Position numbers and translations under genes: made by a program
Assembly (NCBI GenBank): GCA_037893245.1
Contig: JBAIAA010000651.1
Span: 248,001 to 312,000, forward strand
Source of the DNA: Crossaster papposus
Lineage: Eukaryota > Echinodermata > Asteroidea > Velatida > Solasteridae
Length of the DNA stretch: 64,000 nucleotides
Direction of reading: 5' to 3'
Part shown: positions 36,405 through 62,515 of the stretch, one piece after another
Numbering within the stretch: the stretch's first letter is position 1
Layout of the letters: every line of letters starts with the position of its first letter
The notes under the pieces: model-generated
Told to the model about the DNA's origin: nothing
The model's input: the letters and a program-made list of their open reading frames with translations, nothing else
The model's database searches: none

Positions 36405-37850
36405 TTACCGGCTGTCTTTCTTTTCTGGGTCCCTTTTCGCCGCCACGAGGTGTCGGAAAGCTCCCCGCAGGAATCCATTACGCTTGTCCCCGTCTACGAA
36501 GCTAGTGCTCAGAGGGTCGGCTGGTACGTGTAGAAAACCACGCTTGTTGTCTGCGAAGCCTGCAGATAGGGGATCGTAGGCACCCTTTCCAAAACGCTTG
36601 TCTGCGAAGCCTGCGGATAGGGGATCGTAGGCACCCTTCCCGAACCGCTTGTCTGCGAAGCCTGCGGATAGGGGATCGTAGGCACCCTTTCCGAACCGCT
36701 TGTCTGCGAAGCCTGCGGATAGGGGATCGTAGGCACCCTTTCCAAAACGCTTGTCTGCGAAGCCTGCGGATAGGGGATCGTAGGCACCCTTTCCAAAACG
36801 CTTGTCTGCGAAGCCTGCGGATAAGGGATCGTAGGCACCCTTTCCGAAACGCTTGTCTGCGAAGCCTGCGGATAGGGGATCGTAGGCACCCTTTCCAAAA
36901 CGCTTGTCTGCGAAGCCTGCGGATAAGGGATCGTAGGCACCCTTTCCGAACCGCTTGTCTGCGAAGCCTGCGGATAAGGGATCGTAGGCACCCTTTCCGA
37001 ACCGCTTGTCTGCGAAGCCTGCAGATAGGGGATCGTAGGCACCCTTTCCAAAGCGCTTGTCTGCGAAGCCTGCGGATAGGGGATCATAAGCTCCTTTTCC
37101 AAAACGCTTGTCTGTGAAGCCTGCCGAAAGGGGATCGTAGGCACCCTTTCCAAACCGCTTGTCTGCAAAGCCTGCAGATAGGGGATCGTAGGCACCCTTT
37201 CCAAAACGCTTGTCTGCGAAGCCTGCGGATAGGGGATCGTAGGCACCCTTTCCAAAACGCTTGTCTGTGAAGCCTGCGGATAGGGGATCGTAGGCACCCT
37301 TTCCAAACCGCTTGTCTGCGAAGCCTGCGGATAGGGGATCGTAGGCACCCTTTCCGAACCGCTTGTCTGCGAAGCCTGCGGATAGGGGATCGTAGGCACC
37401 CTTTCCAAAACGCTTGTCTGCGAAGCCTGCGGATAGGGGATCGTAGGCACCCTTTCCAAACCGCTTGTCTGCGAAGCCTGCGGATAGGGGATCGTAGGCA
37501 CCCTTTCCGAACCGCTTGTCTGCGAAGCCTGCAGATAGGGGATCGTAGGCACCCTTTCCGAACCGCTTGTCTGCGAAGCCTGCGGATAGGGGATCGTAGG
37601 CACCCTTTCCGAACCGCTTGTCTGCGAAGCCTGCGGATAAGGGATCGTAGGCACCCTTTCCGAACCGCTTGTCTGCGAAGCCTGCGGATAGGGGATCGTA
37701 GGCACCCTTTCCAAACCGCTTGTCTGTGAAGCCTGCAGATAGGGGATTGTAGGCACCCTTTCCAAACCGCTTGTCTTCGTCTGTCAACTCATCGTTCACA
37801 AACTCTTCCAAGAACTTCTCGCCTTCTTTTTCTGCCACCTTCTCGTGGTC
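36405..37850 (-). CDS. PPLN1: SMP-type (pedal peptide/orcokinin-like) neuropeptide precursor, main exon
   Basis: This exon encodes a neuropeptide polyprotein of 481 residues to TAA at 36405. An acceptor (tgttgttAG, - strand) precedes it at 37851, so it starts D-H-E-K-V, not at the GTG at 37838. An acidic spacer of about 27 residues is followed by 24 tandem 17-residue units (37772-36549): a Lys-Arg cleavage site plus FGKGAYDPLSAGFAD. Copy 1 is FGKGAYNPLSAGFTD, and copies 10 and 13 end FTD. Then come a divergent dibasic-bounded peptide, GFLHVPADPLSTSFVDGD, another, NGFLRGAFRHLVAA, and a basic C-terminus. The core AYDPLSAGF(T/A)D matches starfish myorelaxant peptide (from memory FGMGGAYDPLSAGFTD in Patiria), a pedal peptide/orcokinin-type neuropeptide that relaxes starfish muscle. 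Here the unit has one Gly fewer. Prohormone convertases would cut at KR in the secretory pathway. Family assignment is firm; mature peptides are inferred. Confidence 0.93.
   Translation of the reverse strand, partial: DHEKVAEKEGEKFLEEFVNDELTDEDKRFGKGAYNPLSAGFTDKRFGKGAYDPLSAGFADKRFGKGAYDPLSAGFADKRFGKGAYDPLSAGFADKRFGKGAYDPLSAGFADKRFGKGAYDPLSAGFADKRFGKGAYDPLSAGFADKRFGKGAYDPLSAGFADKRFGKGAYDPLSAGFADKRFGKGAYDPLSAGFTDKRFGKGAYDPLSAGFADKRFGKGAYDPLSAGFADKRFGKGAYDPLSAGFTDKRFGKGAYDPLSAGFADKRFGKGAYDPLSAGFADKRFGKGAYDPLSAGFADKRFGKGAYDPLSAGFADKRFGKGAYDPLSAGFADKRFGKGAYDPLSAGFADKRFGKGAYDPLSAGFADKRFGKGAYDPLSAGFADKRFGKGAYDPLSAGFADKRFGKGAYDPLSAGFADKRFGKGAYDPLSAGFADNKRGFLHVPADPLSTSFVDGDKRNGFLRGAFRHLVAAKRDPEKKDSR
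36549..37772 (-). repeat. 24 x 51-bp tandem repeat coding the neuropeptide copies
   Basis: The unit is exactly 51 bp (17 codons) with no indel across 1224 bp. Most differences are synonymous third-position changes (for example Arg codons and Pro/Leu codons). This indicates purifying selection together with recent duplication or gene conversion. Confidence 0.95.
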
Positions 37851-38059
37851 CTAACAACACAAAAGATATGAAAAAAAATAATGCTTGTAATTCAAACCCT
37901 TGTTGCACATTTTGCCTTCCATCTCTGGAGATAGAACATTACAATCGCAACTCGAAAAAGATGGATATTTCTGTGTGTTCCTTCGTTGAGGGTTCGAGAT
38001 CAGCGCAATTTGGTCTCTACCTTTACAGGGATCCATTTTTACTGCAGGGTGGAGAGTGA

Positions 38060-38135
38060 CAATTGCTGTAAAGTGTCTTGCCCAAGAACACAAGCGTCAT
38101 GTTCCCGTCAGGATTCAAACCCGTGTACCATCGCA
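38060..38135 (-). repeat. SINE fragment
   Basis: Contains AAAGTGTCTTGCCCAAGAAC, also found four times at 16203-16487 and in reverse in the 45-bp array at 4900-5390, followed by a degenerate B-box complement (ggattcaaaccc). Confidence 0.5.
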
Positions 38136-38689
38136 CACGAGTCGAACACCCTGATCTGGTACTTGTGCTCATGCCTATACTATTCGGTTAACTACTTATC
38201 TTGCAGGGGGATCTAATCAGTATAAGGAGAGAGATGTGAATGTCATGTTTGCTCAGTGCACTTTCATCGTAATTATCGATGTGTTTGTCCCCGGCCAAGT
38301 ATCACCTCGAATATCCACCCTTCCGATCAGAGGAGCGTGACAAAATCAAGGAGTGTGTTTGTATCTGCGTCCATTTTAGAAGTAATTCGTATTCCGTGCA
38401 TTCATTGCAGGATCGGAGGTGTCTTAGATCCGTAGAATATTCTCTGATTGCTATTTTGTAATGTTTCAGCAAAAACTCCATCGAGTTTGACTCATTTCAT
38501 GAAAGAGAGTGAGTTACATTATACTGAAACTAAACTTCTGAAGCTTCGTGTGGTAAGAGAAGTCTGCACTATACCGTGGGGCCTAAAACTATACCAGGAC
38601 ATGGAATTGTTTCCCAGGTTCGAGAGCCGCCTTGCCAATTTCTTTGTTCACTTGAAATTTGTGATATTGTTGTTAATGATGGAAGTGGA

Positions 38690-38900
38690 GTACCGTGGCC
38701 TGGTCTGGAGCACTCAGTTCAGTAGGTTGTGGTTCGAGTCTGGCCTGGGACTATGGTGCGTGTGCCCTTAGGCAAGGCACTTTGTCACTCATTGCTTCTC
38801 CCCACCCAGGAGTAAATGAGTACCTGTGAGGGCGGAGATGGATGTTATTAGCTGCCGAAATCGCATCAAGAAGCTGAGATGGTATTTGGCGATTGGTTCG
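38690..38900 (+). repeat. SINE-like element
   Basis: Contains a B-box GGTTCGAGTCTGG, then gtgcccttaggcaaggcactttgtc and cattgcttctccccacccagg, related to the body of 40525-40820. Confidence 0.55.
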
Positions 38901-38990
38901 TGGGCCCAATATGCAAAGATAATAACGACACAGTGCCTATGGTGCTATTAGGAAATAATTCTAATCAATCCGCTGTATGCCGACCGTAAG

Positions 38991-39057
38991 CTCGGTGGTT
39001 CAGTGGTTAAGGTATCTGCGCGAAGCAGGGCGTCCCGGGTTTAAGTCCCAACCGAGT
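38991..39057 (+). repeat. tRNA-like sequence (SINE head)
   Basis: CTCGGT at the start pairs with ACCGAG at the end; A-box-like TTCAGTGGTTAAGG and B-box GGGTTTAAGTCCC are present. The anticodon arm has too short a loop, so it is not a functional tRNA gene. Confidence 0.5.
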
Positions 39058-40524
39058 TGCCTTACGAATTGTTTTCTCACGTGCTCTTCGATAACAAATC
39101 GTCGGTCCAAGGCAAAACAAAACATTCAAATTCACATCTCCGGACGCAAAACTAAAATGAAACGCTACTGTCGTAACGTCATCTGAAATGCAACGTTGAC
39201 GAAAAGTAAGGTATACCAAACTGCTGGTCTTTGGTACTTCATTACGCGAGTGAATACATTCTTTGATATAAAGTGCGCCGCCTGATTTTGCTCGTAGCGC
39301 CGATTGGTATTCATTGTCACGTCCTGCGAGAGGATTGCTATACTCCCATCGCGGTGTAAAGTGGGTATGAATTACACCTGACGACCGATCGCTATCTTTC
39401 ATCGCGACACGGCCAAACCAAACCGCTGTATCGCGAGACTGATCGTGATTTGATGGGCGTTTGAGAGGGGAGACTCGCGACGGCAGGCAATCAATTCACA
39501 GTTATTTATGATCAATTGGACCATGAAATATGAAGTGGTTTCCGCGCCTTGTCGTTTTATATTTGTTTTTAATTTATTTTCAAGCGGAGCTCTTATTTAC
39601 CGACTGTGCTGTAAATCTTTAATTTAATTGTGGGAGACGCTTACGTCGCGGTATTTACTCTGACGTCACATTAATGAAACCAGTTTTTATTGTCTTTTGT
39701 TGTTACCTTCCGATATTCAAGCTATAAAAGGCTCATTCTTTGCTCGTCATTGACTAGTGGGAACTTTTGATTGATTGATATGCTGTATAGCATTATCTGT
39801 ATTGCAAGTTTCGATTTATTTTATATTTTTTTTTTAAAGTGACATTACCAGAAAAGCAGAATTATACAGGAGTATTTTTGTTCATCCCGATGACATTTCT
39901 GATTTCCATTCCAAAGCCTTCGAGATATCCATTTCTTTATTTCAAGTCGGCCAGCACCCTGCTATCAAATTGTTTCATTCGCATCAAATTTCCCCTGTTG
40001 TCCATTGACGAAGCCTATATCACTCAAGGTATTACCAAGCTGTATAGCGCACTCGGAAGGCTGCGAGGTTTTAAACCCCGCATTGGAATCCCTCGTACGA
40101 CAGCACTTGAGAATCACCACAGGAATACAATTCCAGTTGTATTTCTCATTCTGGAGGTATTTGTCAAGGGAAGGGAAATGGAATTTGTGGGAAGACGTCA
40201 GGTGTCACTGACGTGCATGTTTGTCGATATGAAGTTCGTCTTTTGATTCCAACTCACGGTGAGAAGTACCAAAATTGAAAGAAATGCGCCAGTCTTGTTG
40301 AAACGATTTACCATTTGTCGACACACAATTTAAATCGCGATTATATAGATCAAAGGGCTTTTACATTATTATTACCCCTTATCAGTGGGCCAATGAAACA
40401 ATCCTAATACAATTTCAGCTCTTTGGCGCAGCTAAATCAACCACAAAGACCATTCTATTCCTCATAGAAGCCCGTTCCTGATCGAATCCAGATCAATCTG
40501 AAAATGTAATATCCTTGACCCATA

Positions 40525-40820
40525 AGCTATCTGGAGTGTCCGGGCGGTTAAGAACTCGGATTTCTGTTCCGCAGAGCGTGGGTTCGAGTCCCGGTGTCGA
40601 CACGCGTGTCCTTAAGCAAGGCAATTAAACCACTATTGCTTCGTCCTTCGGATGGGACGTAAAGCTGTAGGTCCCGTGTGTTGTGTGATGCACGTAAAAG
40701 AACCCAGTAACACTCTTCGCTAAGAGAAGGGGTTCGCCCCGGTGTTCCTGGCAGCGCCTCGGAATAGGCAACTAGATAGATGGCGCTTTACAAATGCATG
40801 ATCATCATCATCATCATCTA
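40525..40820 (+). repeat. tRNA-headed SINE with ATC tail
   Basis: The 5' part resembles a tRNA: GTGTC/GACAC acceptor pairing and B-box GGGTTCGAGTCCC. A body follows (tgtccttaagcaaggc, gcttcgtccttcggatggga, gcacgtaaaagaacccagta, gaaggggttcgcccc, tggcgctttacaaatgc), then a (ATC)n tail. This organisation is typical of echinoderm SINEs. Confidence 0.8.
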
Positions 40821-43800
40821 CCCACCAAGTTTTGAAAAAGAAATTCCTCAGTATTTTTTTTGGTAATAATACCAACAAACAAACAGACACTGAGACAAAC
40901 AAACAAACGCTGGCAAAAACATAACCTCCTTATAAACATACAATCTTCGCTGAGGTAAAAATGTGAGCGTCTATCTTTAATTTGGAATCCGATCTTGTTA
41001 ACATAATCTCAAGGTGTTTTATATTTTACTCTTTGTGGTGATTGTCATTGCTGATACTCAATTTGCCACAAAATCGTGGCCTTAGCAGCACTTAGTGGCG
41101 CGGCGCCTAAGGGAATACATACATTGTAAACAGCTATTGTTACTGCGTATACCTAGCAATCACTCGCAAACGACTAATAGTTGTAGATCTATAGTGGGTG
41201 GATCATAATGTTATGGTTTTTGATTGTTCAGGAATTCTATCTTTAGTTGCACATAAAGGCCTTCAGTTTGAGGTTCTTAGTCTTTGGAGGGTTCACGATG
41301 CCATTTGTTGTGTTTTTAGTGTGTAAATGAGAATTTGTTGTGGTCACGGCATTTAAATAAGCGACAAAATGGCCGGTGTTTGATTGCTATACGCTGGCAT
41401 TAGACTGGCGTCTGTCCTGTCACGTTTGTCAGAATGGCCAGGTTTGTCAGAATGTTTAATAGGTGGATTCCTATGATTTAGTTTTTTTACTTTCATGATT
41501 AATTTCCCTAGTAATTTTTGCTAGTAATTATTAAGTTGTTTTTTAAATCAAACAAGTGTGAACGGGGTTGTAATAATAGTAAACTGCTTTGAGATCGTTA
41601 ATACAATGGAAAGCGATTATAAGCGCGACAATTATTATCTTCTATCTGCAGAATTAAGATTAATAAAATCACTTGCCAAGACAGTTGTTGTGGGTTTTTT
41701 CCCCCGTCCAAACTGATGGCAACAATTTCTATCTAGTAAAAGCGCCGTGCCAACATTCAGTCCCGTTTAAAACTACAGTAGCCAGGATGTTTCCTTCCTT
41801 ACCAATTAATCAACGGTATTCATCTCGTCAGACAACATGACCGGTCTGTTTCTCCCCCTGCGGGGTTCGCCTCCGTCTATCCACCGGGGATATTTAATGC
41901 AATTACCCGGTCCTACTGACAAGTTCGGCATGTACTCGCGAACCTTTTTACCGTACACCTTCTGCGACAATTAGAGGAGACAATGAGCCGAAATCAAATT
42001 GAGAAGGGAAAAGTGCGCTGCGGGAGGGGCGGAGACAGCGGTCGGTGTAAATTTCCCATCAGGAACGCGCGCTCTCGAGAACCGAACGGAAACAATATCT
42101 GAAAAGCAAATTGCAACGAGCTGGGAATTCGGCTCAATGTGGATACAGAAGGAAACAAGGAGATGATATTTGTAGGTTCTATTCATAATGCATTTCACGA
42201 ATTACTGATATGCATTTGCAAACTAATTTCATTCTTATATACAAAATGAGGATATAGAAATACCGATGTTATCAGTCTTGTTGTACATGTATGTAGCATG
42301 CACGGGAGTACCGCACAGTTCATTCAACAACGAATTGCACTTTAAAAGCGTATTTGAAAGTTGTCTGGGCAGAGTATAACGTCGTTGTTTGTAATGGAAT
42401 GTATACATCAGCTGAATCGCCAAGACAAAGTTAGTGGAAGCTTCAAAGAAAATAAGAAGAGAGATGGCTTCGTCTTACTCATAATGTAGTGGTTTTTGTT
42501 TTGTTTTTGTTTTTGTTTTTGTTTTGCTTTGGGTAGGTTGTTTGGTTTTAGTACAGTTTTGTTCTGTTTTTCTTAAAGAAGCATAGTCAAAAAACAGTGA
42601 CAGACAAACTGTGTTTGTTTGCTTTGTTGTTTTAGGTATAATATTTTGTTTCCCTACCGAAGCACCGTGAGAGGTCTTTTTGAATATCAACATTATACCT
42701 GTGTATCCAAAAGTGCATTCCAATTTGCCAATTATTATTATTATTATTATTAACTTATATTGCGCAAATTCCATAAAAAGATGTTCAAATGCGCATAATT
42801 GGTGTGTACGGGTCACATGTGTATGTACATGTAAGACAGGCAAAAAGACATAGGCCTATATAAAGACAAATGGCGCAAAATAAACGTCTGACGGGAAACC
42901 TGCAGCTATTTTAATATATCAAATTTGAAACCCTTTCCTAACTCCGACCGTCTTTTCTTAAGAACGGCATCGGATATGGTTTGCGCATATCTCTTCTCAC
43001 GTTACGTATACCTGCACTCGTCCACTTACGCCCACGAAACCAATACATTCCCAAGTGCGTACAAAGATTGAAACCAAACAATCGGTATGACATTCCATAG
43101 TTGACACGGTGTTAGATATCATACAGTCCATCGTTTGTAATGGGTCATCGGTTGGTAAAGAGAGATATCGCAGAACAAGTCAAATGGCATATCCAGTTAC
43201 CTCCGATATCTCGTATAGCATTTTAGAGAGGAAGCGTCAAAAATGCGCGCGAGTGTACGGACCGCGGGTTATTATGCTCGCCCGCAAAGAGAAACCATTC
43301 TCCGCTTTCGGTTTAAATTATTGCGAGAAAATGATGAAACAAGAGATAAACAATAAAACTAAATACCCCAGAAGAGTTTTAAATAATATTTGTGTGCCTG
43401 GAGACAATTTGCAGACGCATATATATTTGGCAATATTTTTGTAATAGACCTTAGAAGTACTAAAAGTGACCGCCTGTATCGAATTACTTTAAGTTCGTCA
43501 TAAAAGTCGTTGATGGAACTAAACAATTTATTTCTACTAAAACTATTTTCGTTTGCAAATTTAGCTTCGGTTTAATGTTGTAAATCGATCATATAATTAT
43601 TATTTTTGATGAGGTTTTCGTGAGGCTTTAAATGTCGTATGTTTCGCAGGCGAAACAGTGCAACATTTTAATGTTGTGTGTACAAACTAATGCGGCATTT
43701 GTTAGGTGCATTTATAAATTCACTGCATCGTGTTCCATTTTAAATATCGCAGATACTGCCACTTATGTACATAATGTCATCGCGATGGCGTTTCGGCAGG

Positions 43801-44344
43801 TGTTTTTTTGGACAAGCAGGTTGCTCGCTGCATGACTCGCGCCGTGGTGTAACCGATCGATGTGGCGTGTACACCGCCACTCCCGACCTGTAAAACAAGC
43901 AAGTTGTTCAAGCACGGCGGTACGGTGCAAAGTTGGGTCAATGAGCCCCCTCAGAGACCTCGGGAAAGGAAGGCGGTATATACCACGCACCGCCTCCGAC
44001 ACTTCACACCTTCCGTTCAATCGTGAACAAGAAGGAACTTGAGAAAAAAAATGCTGCGCTTGCTTCTTATTTTTTTGTCGTTTGAGCCGAAAATATCCAG
44101 CCTATATTTTGTTCTTTGTTATTTGTTTGTACGTTAAGAGGAAATCTCATTGCCGTGCTACATGTGTGAGAGGATGCAATTAGATTGAACAGGATGTGTA
44201 TTCCCCCTTAGGGTCTGTTTCATTCGATTCTTAGTAGTTCACTCTTGATATCGTGTGTAAACGCGGATTGAGTCCCGCGCCGTGGTCGGGTTAAAATGTG
44301 AAATGTACGGTCGCGTTTGTTTAGGGTGTAAATGGAGGACACAT

Positions 44345-44725
44345 GCCTGGCGACACGAAGGTGAATTGGGGTTAGGGTTAGAATCGAGGACGACCTCGAT
44401 TGAGATTCGTGTACAAAACCAATGAGAGCCGTTGTCTAATGCCTGGCGACAAGAAGGTGAATTGGGGTTAGGGTTAGAATCGAGGACGTCCTCGATTGAG
44501 ATTCGTGTACAAAACCAATGAGAGCCGTTGGCTAATGCCTGGCGACAAGAAGGTGAATTGGGGTTAGGGTTAGAATCGAGGACGTCCTCGATTGAGATTC
44601 GTGTACAAAACCAATGAGAGCCGTTGGCTAATGTCTGGCGACAAGAAGGTGAATTGGGGTTAGGGTTAGAATCGAGGACGTCCTCGATTGAGATTTGTGT
44701 ACAAAACCAATGTGAGCCGTCGGAA
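44345..44725 (+). repeat. 96-bp tandem repeat with palindrome
   Basis: Four units, 96 bp apart (for example gtgaattggggttagggtta at 44361, 44457 and 44553). Each contains ATCGAGGACGTCCTCGAT, a perfect 18-bp palindrome (altered in the first copy), and a telomere-like GGGTTAGGGTTAG. Confidence 0.92.
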
Positions 44726-45174
44726 AACAAACTATAGGCCTAACAAAGAAAATGGAACAAAAAAAACTCCTCGATTTACACCATAAACAAACGTACATGG
44801 ACGAACATCAAACATTCTTTCTTACATTCCTGGCCTGATACCGTGGATTGGTGTCCCGTTCCATTTTACATGCTACGACAGCATTCGTTTTAGGTCACAA
44901 AACTAGAATTGTGAGAGAAAAAAACTCGAAATTTCTCAGTCGGCACACATGAAGATTATTTTAAGTCATTCGTGATATCTATCGAGGTCGTTTAATTACT
45001 TTTATTGCGTACGTACATTGTGTTCTCTCGAATAGTTTAATTGATTTTATTGATAGAACTTATTACAGTGGTGTTACCGCAAACTACTTATTGCTTTCTC
45101 GCCATGCAAACTCTCAAATCTCATCAGAACTTTCTAATGTTCTAATGTTCTCCGTTGAGGTGATCTGAAATTCG

Positions 45175-45495
45175 GTACCCTCTGGAGACCTGAACACAAT
45201 GTGTATAATGGAGACAAAAGGTCTCCGGAGGGTAAATTTCTATAGATGAATAGGTCTCCACTGGGAATTTCACGAATTAGATTTTTGGAGTGTGCCTCAA
45301 ATTACTCAAAAACTAGGTTTAGGATGTGGGTTAGGGTTAGTATTTGGGTTAGGGTATGATATAGGGTATATTGGGTCGAAATTTCAACCCAGAAAATTAA
45401 TTGTGGTTGAAATAGGAGCATTCTGAAAAAGGTGCCCGACTTTTTAACCAGTTTGTACACGAGAACAAAGAGATGTCTCCACTGGGATACAAATT
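45175..45495 (+). repeat. Dispersed repeat L, copy 1
   Basis: About 320 bp shared with 56092-56408: starts taccctctggagac.tgaaca, contains gtgggttagggttagt and agggtatattgggtcgaaat, and ends near tgtctccac.g.gatacaaa. Confidence 0.85.
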
Positions 45496-45857
45496 TGAGA
45501 GTGTTTGAGCTTGTCTGTTTTTAAAGGCAACCATGTATCAACAAACATCATAATGCACTATGACGCATCAGCAGAATTGCTTACTATGGTTACATACAGG
45601 GGCAGATCGTTCACCTTTAATGTCAAGGTTTTTATTTACATTTTCCTCCGTAATCTTCTTGTCGTTCAATGGGATCTGCCAGGGTCTTTCTGGTTTCCCT
45701 CTATTGATTTGTATATTGGAATTGCATCTATAGTAGGCGAGGAGTCACTATCCGTGGCCTTAGTGATACTCTAACGGTAGAAATCTCGGCTACAAACATT
45801 AGCATTGAATGTGGGAAATCACACTGATGATTTGTATATAGACCAGAGAATGTAACC

Positions 45858-46250
45858 TTAAAGGGATCGTATACGTTTGGTAATTGGAACCCATTGTTTG
45901 TTTCAATCCTACATTATAGATATATACTATAAAACTAACCTGTACAAAAATTAATTTCAAAAGGTGGTAGTGATTTTGAGATATTGCCGAAAATCTGGAG
46001 CGGGTATGTCCACGCAGGAAGAATAATCTGCATTGGAATACACAATCTGAGAAACGTCACTGCAGTAACGCTTCTCAGATTCAAATTTGTTGGGATAAAA
46101 AGTGATATCTTTTTCTATAATCGCAGTACTTCCAAGTGAAAAGTTTCTAAAAATGCATTATACTATCCAAAGCTGCTGTACTTTTTACCAAGTAGGTTTT
46201 TATTGCCATTAATTTTTGGAGTTATTACCAAACGTATACGATCCCTTTAA
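45858..46250. mobile_element. MITE family B, copy 2
   Basis: 393 bp, the same length as copy 1. Near-perfect terminal repeats AAAGGGATCGTATACGTTTG and its complement, with TTAA on both sides. Interior non-coding. Confidence 0.85.
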
Positions 46251-48841
46251 AAAACGTTTCGGCTACCGAAACGTCGTACATTTTCGTCTGTATGGGATAA
46301 TACCACGAAATATGAAAACAAACATGTTTTTAAAATGATCGCGCAGTGTTTTAGCGATATCTGCGTGCCCACACAGATCCAGCAACCTCGTAAAAAAATA
46401 TCGAAATCACAATCCATCTGACACAAGGTTCCCAATTACGAATAGGCCTACCCGTTTATAATTATACGCGGGGCGGAGTATCAATTTCACGACCGCGCGT
46501 AAAATTAGTCCTAAATTGTCTCCTCGTGAGTTGGGGCATGTGTCTTGTCTGCGGTGAATGAGTGTCTGGGTAATTATTTTCCCCCATTTATTTTTTATTC
46601 GAGCGGCAAAATGTAAATGGAGACGAGCAACAATTAGGCGTAAATCGTGCCACTTCGAGTTCTGGTAATTTTTGGCCGTAAAACCAAACCTGGCAAGTGG
46701 CAACAGAGGTTAATAACAGTTCGAGTTATTCGTACCAAGGTAGCTCTATACTAAATAGTCGGAACAAGCGACTGTAAATTGTAATACCGATAGTTATACA
46801 TATTCTAGTTACTCTATAGTAATATAATAGTTTATTGTAGATATCATTATTTCTGGGGATTAGTATCACATTGTTTACAATATTTTAACTCTAAATAAAA
46901 CTCAATCCCGTCAAAACCTTCAGAAGCAATATTTAATATTTTTAAGAAAAAGTTTGGAGTAAATTTGGCTTTAAAGTCACACACGTCTTGTATTATAGGT
47001 GAATCTGGAACACAGGTGAAAAACGAAGCCGGAGGGGACCCGCGGTTTTGATAAATGCCCTGTAGGTATCGCTTAAAATCAAACAGTGCTATATGAAATA
47101 TGGATTGCGTTCAAAACATTTTGAATAAAAGAGTTCTAAATTAAAAATATTCCAAAGAAAATTGATTTTCCCCGACATATATAGACGGACCTTTTCAAAT
47201 ATAGAAAGCATGCACAGGTGTACCTTTGTTCGGCGTCACAGGGCCTTTACCTTAGAGCCTGGTTTCTATCAAACGAGCATTTTGAAAAAAAGAATCAAGT
47301 TCTGATGGCGCAGTTTATTATCGAAGCGGTCATGACTGAGCCCCTGTTTGCAACTGTGCCGCAGGTAGAAATCTGTACCGTGTAGATCATGCGGTAGAGG
47401 ACATACAAAAAGAACAGCATTTTACTCGCATCCAACCCCCAGGGAGCACTTATCAATACAAAGCTCTCCTTATCCTCTGCGCATACGGCTGTCCTATGCT
47501 CTAATACCCTTTCTACAACTTCCTTAAAAAAAAAAATATTCCCTCGCATAAACGACGCCAGATTAGGGAAAAACCTCAAAATATGGCCAGTGAAATATGA
47601 TGGTAGCGTCCAAAATGATCAAAACAAACTAGCCCAGGCTTAGCCTACCTAACACTGCATCACTCTCTCGTGGATTTGGTAATTTTTAAGGTTGCATATT
47701 ATAGCCCCCAAATCGGGTTTGCTGTATTTACTGTTATTGCTAATGTATATTTTTTTTAAACATTAAACTCTAATCTGAGATATGGAAACATGGAGCATTA
47801 TTTAATTCTTGACCAAACTAGGTTAACTAAGGCCCAAGGGATTGATAACTGCAGCGACGCACGTTAAATGTAGTACTTACACGATTAATGATCCGTTAAA
47901 TAAGACCAGGGATTCTTTGTATCGGTAAATTGCTTTCTTCCAACGCCGAATAGGGATTTTTCATATTTGCATTCATCTCGGAGAAATAGAGTATGGTTCA
48001 TTTCCTGGATTGCAACAATAATAGGATTTCCTTCCGGAGTGATGAATGGGCATTTTATTTATATTTATATCATCGCTCAGCTCCCAGATGGTCTGAATTT
48101 TCGAGTGGTATACGACGCCAATAATCGTACGTTTTTAATGATCACGCTGGAAAATCAAAAGAAAAGATAAATTGGTAATACCGGAAGTAATTTTGTACTT
48201 GCAGATTTGTACCGAATCTAACCTATAAACTCCATTTATCATAACATTTCGTTTCGTTTTTATCTCGCTGGTGATATTTTAGCTAAATTGATGGAAAAAC
48301 TCAAAGTTCAATGATCCACTCGTACATCAAGTGGCGGCACGAACGCCCAAAATGTCGAGGATTGTGACAGTAAATCGCGCATTCACCCAAAAGTTAGGAA
48401 GAGTTTTGTTTTTAATAACCTTCAAATGTACAGTTAGTTCTTTATCTTTCTGTGTTGCTTCTTTCGTGGGCGTAAGTGGACGAGTGCAGGTTTTCTGTTT
48501 TTGGTTTTTTATTAATGCTCTCTCTCTGGGGTGCAATGTGAGGTGTATTATGTAATAGAGATGTAACGTTACACATTTAGTTTTAATTTGAAAACTTGTT
48601 TGTATTGAAGTCGGTTTCAATTTATATAGGCAAATTTTGAAAGACGTAATGTCGCAGAGTTTAAGGAATTTGGCCGTGCAGAGTTGACAAGTCTTTACAA
48701 AGCGCGCGTGGTTGGAAAGCTTAGAAATTAACTTTTTTTCTGCGTGAGATGTTTTTAACTTTTCAGAAGTTTTCAGAAGTTACGTTGGGATACGTTGCCC
48801 TGTATTATAGGTATATAGTACAAGTGCTTGACTAACCTGCT

Positions 48842-49086
48842 GGGGCTAATTTCATAGAGTTGTTTAAGCATAAAAAAATGCTTAAGCACAACACATTTTG
48901 CTTAGTAAAACCAGCTTAACAGCCACAACTCCACGTGGTGTATAATGTTTGTGATTGGTACTTAGCTGGTGTTAGCTTAGCATAACAATCGCATGGAATG
49001 TTGGCTCCTTACCTGATTTATTAAGCAAGTTTTGTTTGTGCTTAGGCAACATTTTGTGCTTAAGCAGCTCTCTGAAATTTGAACCT
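48842..49086. mobile_element. MITE family D, copy 6
   Basis: GGGGCTAATTTCATAGAGTTG to AAGCAGCTCTCTGAAATTTGAA; reverse-complement relative to 26522-26769. Confidence 0.7.
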
Positions 49087-50905
49087 GGAGTTGTATTTCT
49101 GTGAATGCTCTGTATATTCCGGAAAAAACAATATTATAAGATTTCGATTTCAATTCGATTCAACATTTTGTCGAGTTAATCAGGGCATGTTCTCAATAAG
49201 CCGATGATAGCTGCGCGCGCGCGATGTCGCGCAGTAAACTGACGATTAATGCGCGCGCGTATGCGTGGTGTCAACGCTTGCGCGTACCATTACATACCAA
49301 GACACACCTTGTGAAATGATCTACTTTTATTGTTTTCTTCAAAATGACAGCATGCCATAAGGAATTATATCACTAGGAGTTCAGTGTCATTTACATCTTT
49401 AAAACAACTAATCCTTTCAATAATAATTTAGTTTGTTAGTTTTTTGATATTGCTGCAAATGGTTTACTCTCCCTTTAACTAATGTGAAGTGGAGCACGGT
49501 TTTTTATACCTTGATTGGCGCAGGTTGAACTCCCCAGGGGAAATATTGTTAGCATAAATAATTACCTATGTGACCGCTTTTAATGGGGCATTTGGCTAAA
49601 TAGTCCCGGCGCCAGGTCCTAATCGCGACAAGGGGGAAATAGTTTGTTCTTTATCAAAAGCCTTAAGGACAAAACGACTTCAACAATAATTGAAATCAAT
49701 TAAGGGGGAGGATTGTTTAAGATTCATCCCGTTGGCTCCGATTCATAAATATCTGGAAATTGTCATCATCTCCAAATTGGCCTTAAAAAAACCTGCTCCT
49801 GCATGTACGTTTTCCGATCGTGGGGCATTTAGCTTGTCCGGTTGATGTTTCGCCGGGAAACGACGTCTCGATGAAAATTAGATGGTTATTATTCGGACTG
49901 CCTCCGGGGGCCGAAATGCAGGGATGATGGATCAGAACGGACAAAGTGTATATCCTGACAAAAATAAGAGACATTGCTGGTCATGGCATGTAAAAGATGA
50001 ACCCTGGAAATTACGTTATTTTTGTCTGTCTGTTTTTCTCTTAGAGCCACAGCAATGGATTTTTGGGCCTAAATATATTGTTCATATTATTAAAGATCTT
50101 TGTGTATTCACATATCCTTGTGTATTTGTAAGGTTTGTAGGCCTATTATGCTGTTGTGTTTGTGGGCAATACACATTCTACATTCCTGCATGTCATCTTG
50201 TTTTGTATTGAGCTTTTAGGTTGTGATGGTGGCAAATAAATAATAATAATAGAGACAGACACGTGGTATAGATATGAACTATTCATGCTCTGAACAAATA
50301 GTATTTTCCTAAGAGCCTAATCTGAGAAAAATGCGAGTGTGGTAATAATGACACCTTTGCATTCTCACATCGGACCCATGGCGGACTTTGTAAATATGTA
50401 GCGCATGCGCTGTAGCATCAAACGACGACTTTTAAAATAGAAGTACGGTGGCCCACAAAAATATCTATTCAGTTTCCGGTATTGATGCGCACTGAGCGCG
50501 CGCAGTATATATCCAAGCGGGCGTCCTTTACGGGACCATTATGTCACAGTACAACTCAGTGGGCAGCAGCGTCAAATGACTCCCCAATTTGCACCAAATT
50601 TTCCAAAAATGTTGTCCTACTTCACGGACTGACCGATTACCTGCGAGATTTATTACCGGCCGTTTATGGTTACACCGGGGAAAACGTTTGGTTACACGCG
50701 GCCTCAATGGACTGAAATTTTAGCGGCAATCGCTGCCAAATGATTAGTGTTCGTTTCATTTATTATTGATCCGCGAAGTGCAGCACAGCAGCCGGTGTCA
50801 CTGATACGTGTAAGAAAAAAACGCAGACGAGCATGCGCACTCTGTCCCCGTGACGTCAATGTAAATTTGAAAAAAAGTTGATCACGCTATTCCATGGTGT
50901 AACCA

Positions 50906-51152
50906 GGGGCCAATTTCATAGAGCTGCTAAGCGAAAAAATGTGCTTAGCATGAACATTTGTCCTTGGCCAAAACAGGGTTACAGACCAAATTTTCACTTG
51001 ATCTTTATTGTTTCCGATTGATAATCAGCTGGTTTTTGCTTAGCGCAGCATGAAAAACCCGAAAGATTTTGGCTGGTAACCTGTTTTTAATGAGCAAGAC
51101 TTTTTTGTGCTAAGCAAATTTGTGTGCTTAGCAGCTCTATGAAATTGGCCCC
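50906..51152. mobile_element. MITE family D, copy 7
   Basis: GGGGCCAATTTCATAGAGCTGC at the left and its exact complement at the right; the best-preserved ends of the family in this window. Confidence 0.82.
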
Positions 51153-53725
51153 AGCGCCTAATTCGGCGACATTAATTTGATACCACCCAATAATCATAGT
51201 TTTGCTTGATTCTACTCTAAATCTTCTTGTTATCTCTTTTTTCTGTTAACATTACTTAGGGCGAGTTCACTGACAAGTTGTCGGAAATGTCAAAGTTTCA
51301 GCAACATTAATGCGTTCTGTAAACGCAAGCACCGGTTCACGGAAACTTATTTGTTTTTAGTCCGCGGGGGAAAGAAAATACGCGCGGTTTAATCCCTACA
51401 TACATTTGTAGCCAATGCCTTCTGGTGCGGCTTTCTTCATATTGCTATAGTAAAAGCTTATGTTCGACCACGAAGCTTACGTCTTTAAGCCTTAGAAAAA
51501 ATTAATTAAGAAGTCAGTCTGAACCAAGATTTAATCTCAGACAAAAGATGGTCTGATACTGCCGTAAAAATAAGATTTGTCCTGGGGTGAATTCCGAAAT
51601 TGTATCGACGTACATGTCAAGGTGCTAGTTGTACGCATGACCGATAATTTGATTATTTCATACGCGCGGTTCCTTCTATTTGCTCATTGGGTTCATTTGC
51701 AGGATTGTGCGTAATTCGATTGTCCTTGCCCCTCACCGCTGTCTGTAAAAGAACGAGGCTATCTTGAGAAGACATCACAAATATGAAGACGTGATTTTCT
51801 CTCCATCAATAACCCAGGGCGTGTTTGGCGTCGAGTGCCAACATTCAATTTTGCACTTCATGTTTTGTTTAATAAATAATAAATTAACTTCTTGTTCTCG
51901 CCCGCACCTTTTTTTATATTTAATTATAAACCACAAAATGATGAAAATTTGGTTCATTTTCACATCTGTACTTTTTTTTCTGATCATTATATTTCTATTA
52001 GGGAGTCTTTCAGAGCGTAAAGGCCTATACAATGAAGTATACTTATTATCATATGAAGTGACGATACATAATTCGGATATAAGTCTATACAAATACCTCA
52101 TGCAAACCTTGGAGAAACAATTTTTTTATTATCTTGACTTATGTCTTGTCTTCTCATGCTAAATAATGAAACAGGTGTTTTCGCTGTCATCTACAGAAAG
52201 TCACTTCCGCCCATCAGGGATGAAATGTGGCCCAAGCATCTACTAGTAAACACAAGTGTTAAATAATTGTCTGGGTTTTTTTGGTCCTTACTGATATTTC
52301 ACACCCACCCACCACCCACACAAAGATCGTTTGTTGCAAATAAACAACCACAATATTCGATACACAGCAGCTAGATAGAGACTCTAAAATAGACCGATCC
52401 AGTTGGCCACACCCCTCGAACAATTGACCAATCACACTGCATGGTTTTTATTTAGAGGGTGCAACATTTGCTGTTCTTGTAGTTTTTTTTGTTGAAAAAG
52501 ACGGATTTTTGGTAAGTATTTTATAGCAGATGTTGTACACTAACTTGTTAAAATTGTTGTGTTCATTTTCTATGATGCTGGAAGTAAAATAATGAAAAAA
52601 ATAACATTCTTGTAGTCTAGCTCCCTGACCCTACTTCAAAAGAAGCGGATCAGTAATGTATAGACGTCTGGGAATTGTCCGGTAAGAGAACCAGACTGGC
52701 TTGCATCTGTTCACGAATGTGTATTACCGATTGCAAACCAAATGTATATAGTAAACATTTCCAACAATAATCGGCCGACCGTCATTGTAAAATTGATACA
52801 AAAATTCTACTTGTTTGCAAGAGACAGCACACAGTGTCCATGATTTGACGGAATGCTTGGGGATAACTTACAGTCAAGTGAGTTATTTCACCGTAATTTG
52901 TTCAAGTTAAATTGTACATTTTTGATGTTTGTAAATGTTACCTTTAACCGCCACCAGCGTGCGCTATTATCCCTAACATTTCCATTCTGTCTGCGCGTTG
53001 TCCTGTTTTGTTTGTATGAACATTTCCCATTGCTCTCGGCGACCGTAACAGAATTATTACGAGTCCTACAAACACCTCGCCATGTTTATTCTGGGGTGCC
53101 CTTTGTATAGACACTGTCTGTAGGTATTCACGTCTAGATGTCTCGTGGGACTGACCTATTTCTGGGCGCGAAAATTGATTAAATCTTCAGATTTAAGGTT
53201 TATATATCGATGCGTCAATCCTTTGGGCATCGTCTGTGGGCGCTGAGATGCTGTAAATATGCTTTTTATTTTGTTTGGGTAAGTTCCTTGTAGTTTTGGT
53301 TTGTGTTGACATGGTTGGTGATTGACAACAGGTACAGCCACACAGCGTTTCTCTTTTTATTGAAAACAACGTAAGTTGTGAAAGGACAATGCTTGCGGCG
53401 CCCGCATTTCCCAAAGTTATATCCCTGTGGAGACACAACATTGTTCTTTCCTTAGTTCCCAACCCCCAGCTCCGGAATGGTTTGTTGTCTGTGTACCATT
53501 CTCACCCATTGTGAACAATGTATTGGCGCTGAACATCTGTTACGTAACTATGCAAGAGCTTGCCCTGATTCATGGATTCATGGCAACAGTGTCGTTGGTC
53601 TGAAGAATTTAAAGTTCAACGCTGCCAAGCTGTGTGAGCAAGTCAGTGTACCAGATACTATTCAAATTTCACTCGGGGTCACGCGCAAATGGCTTATTAC
53701 TCAAAAGCGCACATGTAGTCGTGAA

Positions 53726-53903
53726 CCACATAACGATCGAGGATCGATATTGTGTTTTCCTTTATTCCTATGTTATACCCTAACCCCATTGCCTAGCGCT
53801 TGCCCCGACGATCGAGGACCGAATTTTGCCATTCATACCGTCGACCGAGGGGCTTTTGTTCCCTTTGTGCTCTTTTGTGTCTCGACCCTCGATTGTTATG
53901 TGG
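53726..53903. mobile_element. MITE family F, copy 2
   Basis: CCACATAACGATCGAGG and CCCTCGATTGTTATGTGG ends; the interior matches 4599-4781 (ttgtgttttcctttat, cattcataccg.cgaccgaggggcttt). Confidence 0.75.
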
Positions 53904-56091
53904 TGCAAGAGCGGCTGCGCATGTTCAGAACGGACAGAAAGAACGCCACATGGTGACGCTCAGTAGTAGAGTGGCGGTGTGTTTGATTAGTTCGTAAGAT
54001 ATACAGTAGTCTGATGGATAATCTACCGGTCTTGCTATTCAGAGGTTGTGGGTTTAATTATTTATTTTACAGGGGAAATACTAAGTCTCCCAGACCATCG
54101 GTAGCCAAACCCGAATAGAATGGACAGGATATTTGAAACCAAGCTTCCTCACATAACCCAACGACATTTTGATGTATTACGTCTTTTCGTGGCATTTAAA
54201 AAGTCACGCATAGGATACCTAATATAACGAAGCTTTATAAAGGTAATACATGTACAACAAAACGCACGTAAACGTATCTTTATGATGGAATTCACCAATT
54301 AATTAGTTGCTTCGGCGCTGGGCGTTTTGTCTTCTTTGATTTAGACTTTGTAAGATTGATCGCCGAGAATTCCTGAAACGTTTAAGCACGACGCCTCCTT
54401 CTGAGCGGAGCAAAACAAGACGAACATAATTGAAAGGGTTTTTATAGGGGCAGGTGGGACGGGGGACTGGCAATGCAAATTGAGATAAAAGTCACAATAG
54501 CGGCTCCATATCGCCACCTGTCTCTTTTAAAATTATCAGACACAACTGTCAAGACGCGTAGCTGCTGCGTTGCCCAGAATATCTTATCTCTCAACCAAAA
54601 TCTTCCGCATCTATTCCAACAAAGTCAACAATTTCTAGTGTTCTATACTTTTTAAATTTGTATTAAAGGAATATACAAAATTTGCGAACATTACAAAAAA
54701 ATGACCAAGTTACCACGAAATAGTTTAATGGACTGTTAGGGAATGACAGTCTGAAGCATCATGTAAAATAATCGCTCCTGGTGTGCTAGGTTTTTCAAGT
54801 AAAGTTGTATTTTTGTATCAATTTTTAACGCTGATTGGCCGACCAAAGTTGGACACATTTTGTCTTTCTCAAATACTGCTCCTAATGTTTTATATTGAGT
54901 TATTGCATTGTTTTGTGCAATTAATTACACATCTGTTAAGGGTACAAGCCAGCTAGACTGATTTTCTGACCTTGCAGTTCCCGGTCGTCTATATAAATTG
55001 ATTTGTTTCATCTTAAGTGGGGTCTGGGAACTAGACTACAGAAACATGATTGATTTTCTTGATTTTTTCCAGCATCTACGAATCCAAAACATGAAACAAG
55101 TCAGTAAAATACAGTAAAACCGAAATGCTGTCGTTGGAGGCGCACAGCTGTCTACCTCAAAGCATTATGGGTAGAAGTGGACACTTATTTGTATAGCGAT
55201 GCAAAAGGTATTATTTTTGCTGCAGGCGACAAGTCATTTATTTTTCTAAATTAGATTTTTTATTTTTGTTGTAGTTGGTGTTTTTTGGCGATGGGTTTTA
55301 AATGCGTGGGTTGAATTAAAAGACCTTGGTGCTCGGATGATTGCAGGATTTAGTCGCAGGAAATCGGCCGAGCGGTTTCGAAAGACACGCGCTTGAAAAC
55401 AAGACTACGCAGCGCCTAAACTTGTTTGTAGACTAAGCAAGACCTGCTTCACTGCTGTTTTTTTTAATCATTGTTTGTTTTCACATCGCGTACTTGCGTA
55501 AGAACGAAAATAAAAACCAAGTGAAGATTTACCTACCTACATCCGGGAACATTTTAGTCTCCTATTTAATCAAAAGTTTTTACCCAATGACCGCCACAAC
55601 ATTATTTCATACATTTTCATCTTTGTACGAGTGCTTCGATTCCTTCATCTATTTTAGATTTTCGAAAGTGAAAGGTCGGATTTAGCACGATATTTCCCTT
55701 TCACATTATGCAAATTTTCAGTTTGGATATATTGAGATGCTAGAAACAATTCTACAAAGGCCTTTTCAATGTACCAACAATAATTATAAAAACTTCGACC
55801 TTTACACGCTAATTTGTCTGTTCGAGTGGTCCGGAAGCGCGCCACCAAGGGGTCAACTTTCAGGCTCTATGCGCACGGTGTCATTATGTGGTTCATGCCT
55901 GTGCATAAATCATGTAGCTGTCACACATCCTACTCTCTATGTTGACTGATATTGATTTTTAATTTGAATGAACTTAGTTGTCGTCACCATGCTCTTCACA
56001 CTTCGGTGTACAATCGTTGTATTCATGAACCTCTGAACGTAGAATACAGCCACACATAGTGAAGGCTTGCGTGGACTTGGTGCGAAATACC

Positions 56092-56408
56092 GTACCCTCT
56101 GGAGACATGAACACAATGTGTACAATGGAGACAAAACGTCTCCGGAGGGTAAATTTCTATAGATGAATAGGTCTCCATTGGGAATTTCACGAATTAGATT
56201 TTTGGATTTTGATTAAATTACTCAAAAACTAGGATTAGGATGTGGGTTAGGGTTAGTGTTTGGGTTAGGGTATAATATAGGGTATATTGGGTCGAAATTT
56301 CAACCCAGGAAAAAAATTATGGTTAAAATGGGAGCATTTTGAAAAACGTGCTCGACTTTCTAACCATTTTGTACACGAGAACAAAGCCATGTCTCCACAG
56401 TGATACAA
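56092..56408 (+). repeat. Dispersed repeat L, copy 2
   Basis: Same orientation and about 90% identical by eye to 45175-45495. Confidence 0.85.
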
Positions 56409-57565
56409 AAATGCGAATGTATGCTCATGTACACACACACATACACACCGGCAACCGCGGACCTCCTATTGTCCCTCTTTTGTTTGTACTTTAGCGACTT
56501 GCCGGTGTTTACATACTCAAGGTCACCCCTACCCCTCCTTTTAGAGGAACCATTGGATTGGGGTTATCTGTGGCAAAATGGCGGGAAACACTCCAGGAAG
56601 TTACGATCAAAAGTTCGGTTTTAAAGAATGATCACGATGCGATGTGTATTTTCTCCGCATATGTGTTCAGTATGTGACGCTAGTAGTGTGAATCGAGTGT
56701 TGCAAAGCAGGAAGTACGATTGAAAAATTTCCACAGAACCAAATAATGTAACATTACCTGACACAGCCCACACAATTTCATAGTTGACCAATTTCTTACT
56801 CTCGTATATATCTACTCGTTTTCACGAGTGGGTGTCCGTTTTATGTTGCGCCTCATCTCTGGCGTCTAGCCTCCAAAATTACTTAAATTCACTCTATTTG
56901 CTTGACCAATTGGCAATTTGAACACCGTGGGTGTGTAAACACCAACGCCACGAATGGAAAAACAAAACTTGGGGGTTGGTTCACCAAATTGTATTGCGAA
57001 AATGAAAATTTGACAGTCCCCTGCAGCCCCAAATGCATTTGTACACGCCGTCGTTTGTAAATGGCAGTTCTGCGTGCGGTAAATCGAGAGGTAGTTAATA
57101 GGAGCCGGCTTCAACCGTGTTCAGCGTTTGAGTCCCCACCTAAGCAGCGCCCGGTCAATCACTCGGTTTCTCATTCATCTTAAAACATTAATACCATCGT
57201 TATAATTCTACCCGAGTTCCTTCTCTCTCTCTCTCGCTATTCTGTTTAATAGCATTTTATCCCCCAGCTTATTGTCATACTTTGTTATTGATAACACCTT
57301 GGGCTTTCTTCCCGTTATAACTCTCGCGGCGCCTGTCAAGACTTTTTAAATTTTTCAGCCATCATGCATCCCAGCGACGATGTGGCACCAATTTTGCGCT
57401 GGTCTCACTTAGAGTGCTTTCCACTCCATCAAACTGGCTCCACATCTTCGTTTCGTGTCACTGACTTGCATGCCAATCTTTTTTTTGCCCAATATTATAG
57501 CGCTGCTTATAACCGGGTTAGCAGAAAAGTTGTACTGTAACAGAAAAATCATGGCGTGGATAGGC

Positions 57566-57831
57566 CTAAAGGTAGGATACACCATTTGCAGAAATCGAAT
57601 TGTTTTAATACCGAATTATTAAAAAATATCTTACTTATTGGATCCCGAAAAAAACAAGAACAACTTAAGAACCACTGCCCCACCCCGGTTGAAAACGAAC
57701 GCCGTTTCTCAGTATCCATGATTGTAAAACATCGGACAGGTCAGTTAAATGATATTTCTTATCAAATACAACCCCCAAATTCCACCCATTCGTGATCTTT
57801 TAATCAATTACCAATGGATCCTACCTTTTAA
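57566..57831. mobile_element. MITE family C, copy 2
   Basis: AAAGGTAGGATACACCATTTG at the left and CCAATGGATCCTACCTTTTAA at the right, 266 bp. Shares the interior with 6582-7074 (cgttt.ca.., ccacccat). Confidence 0.65.
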
Positions 57832-58189
57832 GCTTGCGCGCGCATGGATATTTATATTGTGATGTCACTGAACTAAGCAACTTTCCTCCGTGATTAAACG
57901 TAATTTTCCTGTGCTTACTGCTAACAGTCTCTATGAAATGACGGAGGCTGGGTTAAGCACGAAATCGGTTGTTAAGCAGCGCTAAGAAATTGGACCTCGG
58001 AGGTTCCTAAGCCAGTAAAGTTTCGGATATCGCCAACATGTTTGTTTTATTTTCTTTCTTGTTTTCATTTAACAGAGAACATACGGTAACGTGGATTGTA
58101 CGTAGACGAGTTAACAAATGGATTTCGGTAAGTGGAACTTTGATGTAAACTATACCATTTCTTCAGACAGTTTAAACTGTTTAAACCAG

Positions 58190-58275
58190 TTCGCGTTGGA
58201 GGACGTATAAACACGCAAAGATTTTGTTCCCGAATTCAAACCGGATAACGGATAAGCACGTCACGAGAAAGGCCA
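58190..58275. mobile_element. MITE family A, partial copy
   Basis: Starts TTAAACCAGTTCGCGTTGG and keeps the first 80 bp (cacgcaaaga, cacgtcacgag). It then runs into a tRNA-like sequence; the right end is missing. Confidence 0.5.
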
Positions 58276-58341
58276 GGGCGGGAATCGAACCCGGGCCACA
58301 GCGGTGGAAAGCTAAGACAATAACCACTGCATCTATCCAAC
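58270..58341 (-). repeat. tRNA-like sequence
   Basis: On the - strand B-box GGGTTCGATTCCC and A-box-like GATGCAGTGGTTA are present. There is no acceptor-stem pairing, so it is a SINE remnant. Confidence 0.5.
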
Positions 58342-58389
58342 TTCATTCGGTTCTTATTGAGGTTTTGTTCCAATTGTTCATTAGCAGAT

Positions 58390-58650
58390 GACCTATATAT
58401 GTACTATAAACTCGGTCATAGCTTAATTAAGTTTTCCCTTTATAATTAGGTTTCTGTGTTAACATTAGTAAGGCCATTACCTAAACAATGTATTCCGTAT
58501 TTCACATTAACTTGAATATGTTCTCCTATGTACTATAAACTCGGTCATAGCTTAATTAAGTTTTCCCATTATAATCAGGTTTCTGTGTTAACATTAGTAA
58601 GGCCATTAACTAAACAATGGATTTCCTATTTCACATTAACCTGAATAATG
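58390..58650 (+). repeat. Tandem duplication of about 131 bp
   Basis: Two adjacent copies starting tatgtactataaactcggt, with a few substitutions. Confidence 0.85.
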
Positions 58651-58711
58651 TTCTGATCAGTAATAGCCTAACCAGACCTGACAATAATAATCAAGAGTAC
58701 ACTCTCTAAAT

Positions 58712-58955
58712 GCTGTGCGTTGGCCATTATTTGCGTAGTCGGTGACGCGTGTCATTCCCAATTAGCGTAAGCACACATCCAGCAGCAGATTTAGGGAACG
58801 ATTCGATACCACGACATCGTTTTTTTGTAATAAACGTAATTCGGTTGGACATTACGCAAACACACACTCTCTTATACGTGAACCTTCACAATAGGCATAC
58901 CTTTTTTAAAGGTTACTTTGACGTACAGCAAATCGACAACCAACTGCATTGGAAC
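58712..58955 (+). repeat. Direct repeat M, left copy
   Basis: About 240 bp repeated at 60515-60755 (gcgttggccattatttgcgt ... cagcaaatcgacaaccaact). Contains one copy of the 33-bp unit seed. Confidence 0.88.
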
Positions 58956-59439
58956 CCTGCTATATAACGATATACATACATTTTGTTTGGTATATTGATT
59001 GTTCAGTATAGCGATTTTCAGCTGCCAGTCCATCGGGTGCCCATTTTTTAAAGATGGCGTCCGTTCTTTTAAATATCACCCTCTTGTTACCTGCTTCATG
59101 TGCGCCATATTTTATTTAGCCTATAACACCAAATTCTTATTCATCACACTGAATTCTAAAGCAACGGTTGGTTTTTCCCTTCTATTCATTGGGGAAACAT
59201 ATAGCCACCAGTCACTCTTTAACTTTAAGCACCCGCCGTTCGTTTGATGTTAGGGAATAAAACACGGCCTTATAAATAGTGTTTGATATACCCAGTGGAT
59301 TTCTAAAAGTCTGTTGACATTTTTTTAACAAGAAGGTTCGTTATGTTTAGACACACACATCGGGAGCTAAGGATGGTGTTCGGAATAGCCGAATGTTCAG
59401 TATAGCGGCGTTCGGTATAGCGACGTTCTATATGTATAC

Positions 59440-60125
59440 CCAAACCCTCAGCAAATCGACAACCAAATATACCAAAACCTTCAGCAAATCGACAACCAAC
59501 TATACCAAAACCCTCAGCAAATCGATAACCAACTATACCAAAACCCTCAGCAAATCGACAACCAACTATACCAAAACCTTCAGCAAATCGACAACCAACT
59601 CATACCCAAACCTTCAGCAAATCGACAACCAACTATATCAAAACCCTCAGCAAATCGACAACCAACTATACCAAAACCTTCAGCAAATCGACAACCAACT
59701 ATATCAAAACCTACTGCAAATCGACAACCAAATATACCAAAACCTTCAGCAAATCGACAACCAACTATACCAAAACCCTCAGCAAATCGATAACCAACTA
59801 TACCAAAACCCTCAGCAAATCGACAACCAACTATACCAAAACCTTCAGCAAATCGACAACCAACTCATACCCAAACCTTCAGCAAATCGACAACCAACTA
59901 TATCAAAACCCTCAGCAAATCGACAACCAACTATACCAAAACCTTCAGCAAATCGACAAGCAACTATACCAAAACCTACTGCAAATCGACAACCAACTAT
60001 ACCAAAACCCTCAGCAAATCGACAACCAACTATACCAAAACCTTCAGCAAATCGACAACGAACTATACCAAAACCTTCAGCAAATCGACAACGAACTATA
60101 CCAAAACCTTCAGCAAATAACTTCC
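59440..60125 (+). repeat. 33-bp minisatellite
   Basis: About 20 units of the form CAGCAAATCGACAACCAACT plus ataccaaaaccct. The 315-codon + frame across it, and the matching - frame, result from the 33-bp period. Confidence 0.92.
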
Positions 60126-62487: not shown

Positions 62488-62515
62488 TGTCTTCACAATG
62501 GCATCGCTGGCTCGC

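Follow-up and report, generated by a model that had tools for sequence, protein, structure and literature searches.

A probable SMP-type pedal peptide/orcokinin precursor gene with 24 near-identical peptide units in the starfish Crossaster papposus

What is very probably the gene for a starfish SMP-type (PPLNP1) pedal peptide/orcokinin precursor lies on the minus strand of a 64,000-nucleotide stretch of C. papposus contig JBAIAA010000651.1 (positions 248,001 to 312,000; GenBank assembly GCA_037893245.1), hereafter referred to as the window. This high confidence applies to the identification taken jointly with a proposal for the splicing, processing, function and homogenization of the gene. The gene family is already known; the new details are a 15-residue peptide with Ala at position 14 (Ala14) and a homogenized array. 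The core pattern of the array occurs at a single locus, as an exact degenerate search of the 1.02-Gb genome returned 23 matches that all fell inside the array, with unit 1 lying outside the pattern because of its N7.

Organization and variation of the repeat array

The open minus-strand frame encodes 481 residues followed by a stop codon and is read as one main coding exon (Table 1). Splitting of the translation at its KR sites, 27 of which bound 26 peptides (the 24 units and two end peptides), bore out the count of 24 units given in the initial annotation and placed them on the minus strand. The units had been described as being of perfect length, which is accurate for 23 of the 24 (exactly 15 residues plus KR) but not for unit 24, where 15 residues are followed by N and then KR. 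Tandem Repeats Finder reported a 51-bp unit in 24.1 copies at 36547-37776, with 95% matches and 0% indels. The 15-mer with a mostly Ala-Asp end was likewise recovered, since Ala14 is carried by 21/24 units in the form FGKGAYDPLSAGFAD (20 then KR, one then NKR). The Thr form, FGKGAYDPLSAGFTD, makes up 2/24 units (units 10 and 13) and FGKGAYNPLSAGFTD the remaining one (unit 1). Gly was absent before every KR of the main exon, from which no C-terminal amidation is predicted.

Table 1. Features of the putative precursor gene and its upstream region (window positions)
Feature	Position	Strand	Basis
Possible CRE site, TGACGTCA	62727-62734	-	
TATAAG, possible TATA box	62515..62520	-	By eye; ~200 bp upstream of the ATG in exon 1
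Candidate exon 1, MRLSVWSLIVVLAAVGLNAVLPTNAEAE, putative signal peptide; donor GAG/GTAAGC, phase 0	62230..62313	-	
Predicted first intron, 24,379 bp	37851..62229	-	Interval between exon borders
Main coding exon (481 codons and stop) with a spacer, the array of 24 SMP-like units, both end peptides and a short tail	36405..37850	-	
Acidic spacer DHEKVAEKEGEKFLEEFVNDELTDED + first KR	37767..37850	-	KR splitting of translation
24-unit array, FGKGAYDPLSAGF(A/T)D, 51-bp period	36540..37766	-	Tandem Repeats Finder + KR splitting
Array unit 1, NPLSAGFTD variant	37716-37766	-	
Array unit 10, FTD end	37257-37307	-	
Array unit 13, FTD end	37104-37154	-	
Array unit 24, then NKR	36540-36593	-	
ArPPLN1d-like peptide GFLHVPADPLSTSFVDGD + KR	36480..36539	-	Alignment score reached by 0/20000 shuffles
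ArPPLN1e-like peptide NGFLRGAFRHLVAA + KR	36432..36479	-	Alignment score reached by 3/20000 shuffles
C-terminal tail DPEKKDSR + stop	36405..36431	-	KR splitting of translation

Units differed from one another by a mean of 2.1/45 bases, those furthest from the consensus being unit 14 (four changes) and units 1 and 13 (three each). Relative to the 45-base consensus, 27 synonymous and 4 non-synonymous codon differences were counted. These represent 13 distinct changes, 11 of which are silent, the two replacing changes being D7N (1/24) and A14T (3/24). Approximately 28% of random changes would be expected to be synonymous. Tested in the coding frame, the silent bias had a binomial P of ~1e-11 with every cell counted and of ~4e-5 for the 13 distinct changes; the latter is the fairer figure, as cells are not independent when homogenization copies changes between units. 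Variation in the array is silent-biased beyond chance.

This bias, computed for the coding frame, together with the family-specific sequence, a KR at each border and the end peptides typical of the family, makes it extremely improbable that the array is a tandem DNA repeat in which one frame is open by chance and encodes no functional peptide. Two other arrays in the window (14816-16078 and 59351-60340) are likewise open in several frames, and other frames of the SMP-like array are open too, but the KR borders and family sequence occur in its coding frame alone.

The 24 units could also be a product of assembly, with the true array being shorter, longer or variable between alleles. Units of 51 bp that are 95% alike are hard to assemble, and errors of this kind are described for repeated neuropeptide precursors in the available text of PMC6586643. 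Nevertheless, when KR codons are included, units 1 to 23 comprise 13 haplotypes, eight of which occur once, and neighbors are never identical; moreover, the array is short (1.2 kb) relative to its 413-kb contig, and an assembly product is considered improbable. When KR codons were left out, some neighboring units were identical (e.g., 7-8, 16-17 and 20-21). Two-unit blocks were repeated three times compared with 0.93 expected from shuffles, a weak excess (P 0.04), and a search of the array for higher-order structure found no four-unit block repeats.

Family identity and comparison with known precursors

The sequences for comparison came from the available portions of published sources. In PMC5656890, the Asterias rubens precursor ArPPLNP1 has 224 residues and nine peptides of five kinds, namely, ArPPLN1a (GFGMGAYDPLSAGFTD), ArPPLN1b (FGGKGAFDPLSAGFTD), ArPPLN1c (FGGSRGAFDPLSAGFTD), ArPPLN1d (SFVHGDFDPLSTGFVDGD) and ArPPLN1e (AGFMNGVFHPLVA), while PMC5814872 gives eight copies. 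The same portion of PMC5656890 lists the Patiria pectinifera SMP as FGKGGAYDPLSAGFTD, with a precursor of 12 SMP and seven related copies (19 in total).

The SMP/PPLNP1 assignment follows from the match of the 15-mer to ArPPLN1a and from the two end peptides. In an ungapped alignment, 13/15 positions of the 15-mer are identical to the C-terminal 15 residues of ArPPLN1a. GFLHVPADPLSTSFVDGD shares 12/17 aligned residues with ArPPLN1d and NGFLRGAFRHLVAA shares 7/12 with ArPPLN1e (shuffle controls in Table 1), and these companion peptides are the last in the precursor. They are presumably the last peptides in the A. rubens precursor too. With the PLSAGF core and the dibasic sites, both end peptides substantiate the initial description of an SMP-like polyprotein.

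Pedal peptide/orcokinin-type peptides are recognized by a Phe near the N terminus, an Asp-X-Leu core (X = Pro/Thr) and an aromatic residue near the C terminus (PMC9793003). In the present array, F1, (D/N)PL and F13 were found in 24/24 units (DPL in 23/24, NPL in unit 1), and the main exon holds multiple copies between dibasic sites. The C-terminal nonapeptide DPLSAGFTD is exact in only 2/24 units, with DPLSAGFAD in 21/24 and NPLSAGFTD in 1/24; this Thr-to-Ala change alters an otherwise constant nonapeptide and may count against the proposed reading. An Amphiura filiformis precursor (P0002) includes a peptide reading DPLSAGFAN, in which Ala stands at the Thr position of SMP, and Ala at the varied position therefore occurs in another echinoderm.

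The search against related precursors that had been suggested from the sequence produced matches for the last 147 residues of the main exon. With this query, P0001, an Asterias-like fragment with a portion of ArPPLN1a and complete 1b and 1c, had an E value of 1.2e-15, and P0002, in which MDPL..GF repeats are found, had an E value of 6.9e-8. The full main exon as query gave no match at E<=0.001, perhaps owing to composition correction of a repetitive query, and a Pfam search with the main exon identified no family at E<=1. P0003, the sole match of the region protein search (E=1.0), was judged unrelated by eye and rejected. All three protein searches scored roughly 8000 candidates with most words in common. 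When P0002 was used as the query against the genome, six matches were obtained at one locus, all within the main exon.

As far as the available text of the sources extends, the C. papposus precursor resembles ArPPLNP1 in its DPLSAGF peptides, free-acid ends, 18-residue ...DPLST.FVDGD peptide and GF....LVA peptide. It differs from that precursor of 224 residues and nine peptides in having 509 residues (as predicted by the exon join) and 26 peptides, 20 of them of one exact sequence, and in carrying FAD in place of FTD in 21/24 units. The SMP precursor of P. pectinifera (Kim et al. 2016, via the available portions of PMC5656890 and PMC5814872) likewise has a multicopy FGKG-AYDPLSAGF.D peptide, although SMP itself has 16 residues, including an additional Gly and Thr15, and the 12 SMP copies are accompanied there by seven related ones. 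The initial annotation gave described SMPs as 16-mers with two Gly before Ala-Tyr and a Thr-Asp end, which fits the P. pectinifera SMP but not the family, as ArPPLN1a and 1b in the text available already have one Gly there.

In size, the precursor nearly equals the sea urchin SpPPLNP1, which in the available part of PMC5860471 has 510 residues and 21 pedal-peptide-like copies named a to i, a set that, judged from these names, is more mixed than the one found here. The A. filiformis precursor P0002 has a similar signal-peptide-like start, acidic spacer and KR-bounded F..FMDPL..GF peptides; however, it is 140 residues long with five diverged peptides, and no ArPPLN1d- or 1e-like peptide was recognized in it by eye. 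The copy number had been called high for the family. Twenty-four does exceed the starfish SMP precursors with readable counts in the available sources (19 in P. pectinifera and 9 in A. rubens), but the wider family reaches 21 in SpPPLNP1 and 25 variants in a scallop pedal peptide entry (PMC5996578, available text). The initial annotation also suggested a lineage-specific expansion, which would be a possible reading of the one genome of this lineage analyzed, and a very high peptide yield, which may follow from the copy number. Neither FGKGAYDPLSAGF nor DPLSAGFAD was present in the text of the 5.39 million papers searched, which excluded figures and most subscription papers.

A candidate signal-peptide exon upstream

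No signal peptide was identified on the main exon, a point that, like the two end peptides, does not figure in the initial annotation. TTTTGTGTTGTTAG is found immediately before 37850, and the in-frame TAG there means that the signal peptide must come from elsewhere. An upstream scan for ATG starts leading through a hydrophobic stretch to a phase-0 donor identified seven candidates, the best being 62313-62230. This exon likely joins the main exon in phase from 24.4 kb upstream and supplies the signal peptide; the 24 units would account for 71% of the predicted joined precursor of 509 residues.

A second scan, covering both strands of the window, passed seven rows (four plus, three minus) through a signal-peptide-plus-donor filter, and 62313-62230 had the top hydrophobicity of the seven (3.17). 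Its donor scored 7/9, which equals the filter threshold and is common to five other rows, compared with 8 for row 28935. The filter set at 8/9 had listed only 28935 and was relaxed to 7/9 after the 62313 candidate was known. In 40 Markov shuffles, a mean of 0.625 rows per strand was obtained (0.275 in phase 0), and none was in phase 0 with a hydrophobicity of >=3.1. By the same filter, no row was found in the next 9 kb upstream of candidate exon 1, and the 361 bases around this exon had a single match in the genome.

An SMP precursor whose signal peptide comes from another exon, either nearer or with small exons between, is an unlikely but still appreciable possibility, as 24.4 kb is a long intron and a phase-0 candidate at 40314 on the minus strand has the equal donor score of 7/9. 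Against this, the core at 62313 is more hydrophobic (3.17 versus 2.94 for 40314), and this candidate has a TNA/AEA cleavage motif, TATAAG upstream and a single genome occurrence. Exon 62313-62230 is accordingly preferred. Fourteen frames of at least 110 residues lie wholly inside the predicted intron; four were run against Pfam, and 0/4 matched at E<=0.01.

Two further lines were dropped. Six copies of TGACGTCA occur in the window compared with 0.76 expected (0/100 shuffles reach 6), including one 0.4 kb upstream of candidate exon 1; given this recurrence, the CRE site was not retained as promoter evidence. A comparison of candidate exon 1 with the signal peptide of the Amphiura precursor was also set aside as non-significant, its score being reached by 353/10000 shuffles of the full peptide and 1401/10000 of the core.

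Other features were recorded in the window and assembly. A row of plus-strand exon-like frames with EGF-type domains (124-23442) is perhaps one large multi-EGF gene; of six frames run against Pfam, five hit an EGF-type family (E<=0.01), three of them over the curated cut-off (EGF_CA, EGF_2 and laminin EGF). An 11-bp tandem array of GGAAGGACTTG (14894-15894, 91 copies) is open for >300 residues in five frames (three plus strand, two minus), and a 33-bp array (59435-60118, 20.7 copies) ~2 kb from candidate exon 1 is open in several frames. A tRNA-Ala (GGC) gene is located at 26318-26390 on the minus strand. On the 16,330-bp mitochondrial contig, which translates with table 9, 16S, ND2 and ND1 are opposite in strand to COI, COII, COIII, ND4, ND5 and cytb (COI called by Pfam, 16S by Rfam and the others by eye from translations); this is the asteroid gene order and fits a starfish. 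A 5.30-Mb contig, C8, of the same assembly (G000; L011, L013 and L014) has COX1-family frames without internal stops and may be a bacterial chromosome, from either a symbiont or a contaminant.

Predicted products and evolution of the array

In the proposed scheme, the transcript would join the signal-peptide exon to one large exon, and the precursor would enter the secretory pathway, where it would be cleaved by convertases at the KR sites and its products trimmed by carboxypeptidases. Processing could yield as many as 24 SMP-like peptides (20 FGKGAYDPLSAGFAD, one with an added Asn and three Thr forms), along with a single copy each of the ArPPLN1d-like and ArPPLN1e-like peptides, and the C termini of all these products are predicted to be free acids. 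The calculated m/z values of the doubly charged ions are 758.36 for FGKGAYDPLSAGFAD, 773.37 for the FTD form, 937.45 for the ArPPLN1d-like peptide and 764.93 for the ArPPLN1e-like peptide; for ArPPLN1b, this calculation returns 793.878, compared with the 793.88 reported in PMC5656890. A myorelaxant action of SMP and ArPPLN1b is described in the available text of PMC5656890 and PMC5814872. By analogy with A. rubens and P. pectinifera, the same role is most likely for the present peptides, which would act as inhibitory neuromuscular transmitters relaxing muscle, tube feet and stomach.

The array may have been generated, and may be kept uniform, by gene conversion or unequal exchange among its 51-bp units, with selection acting on the peptide. 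The position of Ala14 is occupied by Thr in SMP and in ArPPLN1a, 1b and 1c as far as given in the sources, and Ala14 is thus probably derived and spread through exchange between units. Units 1 and 13 may have kept their Thr as a relic. Unit 10 matches the consensus apart from its Thr, which may have arisen by back-mutation at a CpG.

The available part of PMC5627052 poses as an open question whether the identical or related peptide copies of a neuropeptide precursor are redundant or serve separate functions. The brittle star copy-number survey described there omitted pedal peptide precursors, as their orthology could not be settled. Conserved single-copy end peptides combined with a homogenized core provide an orthology anchor, and the array offers a clean copy-number contrast with the 9-copy and 19-copy starfish relatives. 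More speculatively, and with considerable doubt, homogenization in this starfish lineage could have swapped an ancestral SMP mix for a near-single Ala14 15-mer, giving a high-dose signal with possible receptor co-adaptation. If true, a receptor-facing change would have been driven through 21/24 copies, and a mixed set of peptides would have become a single signal.
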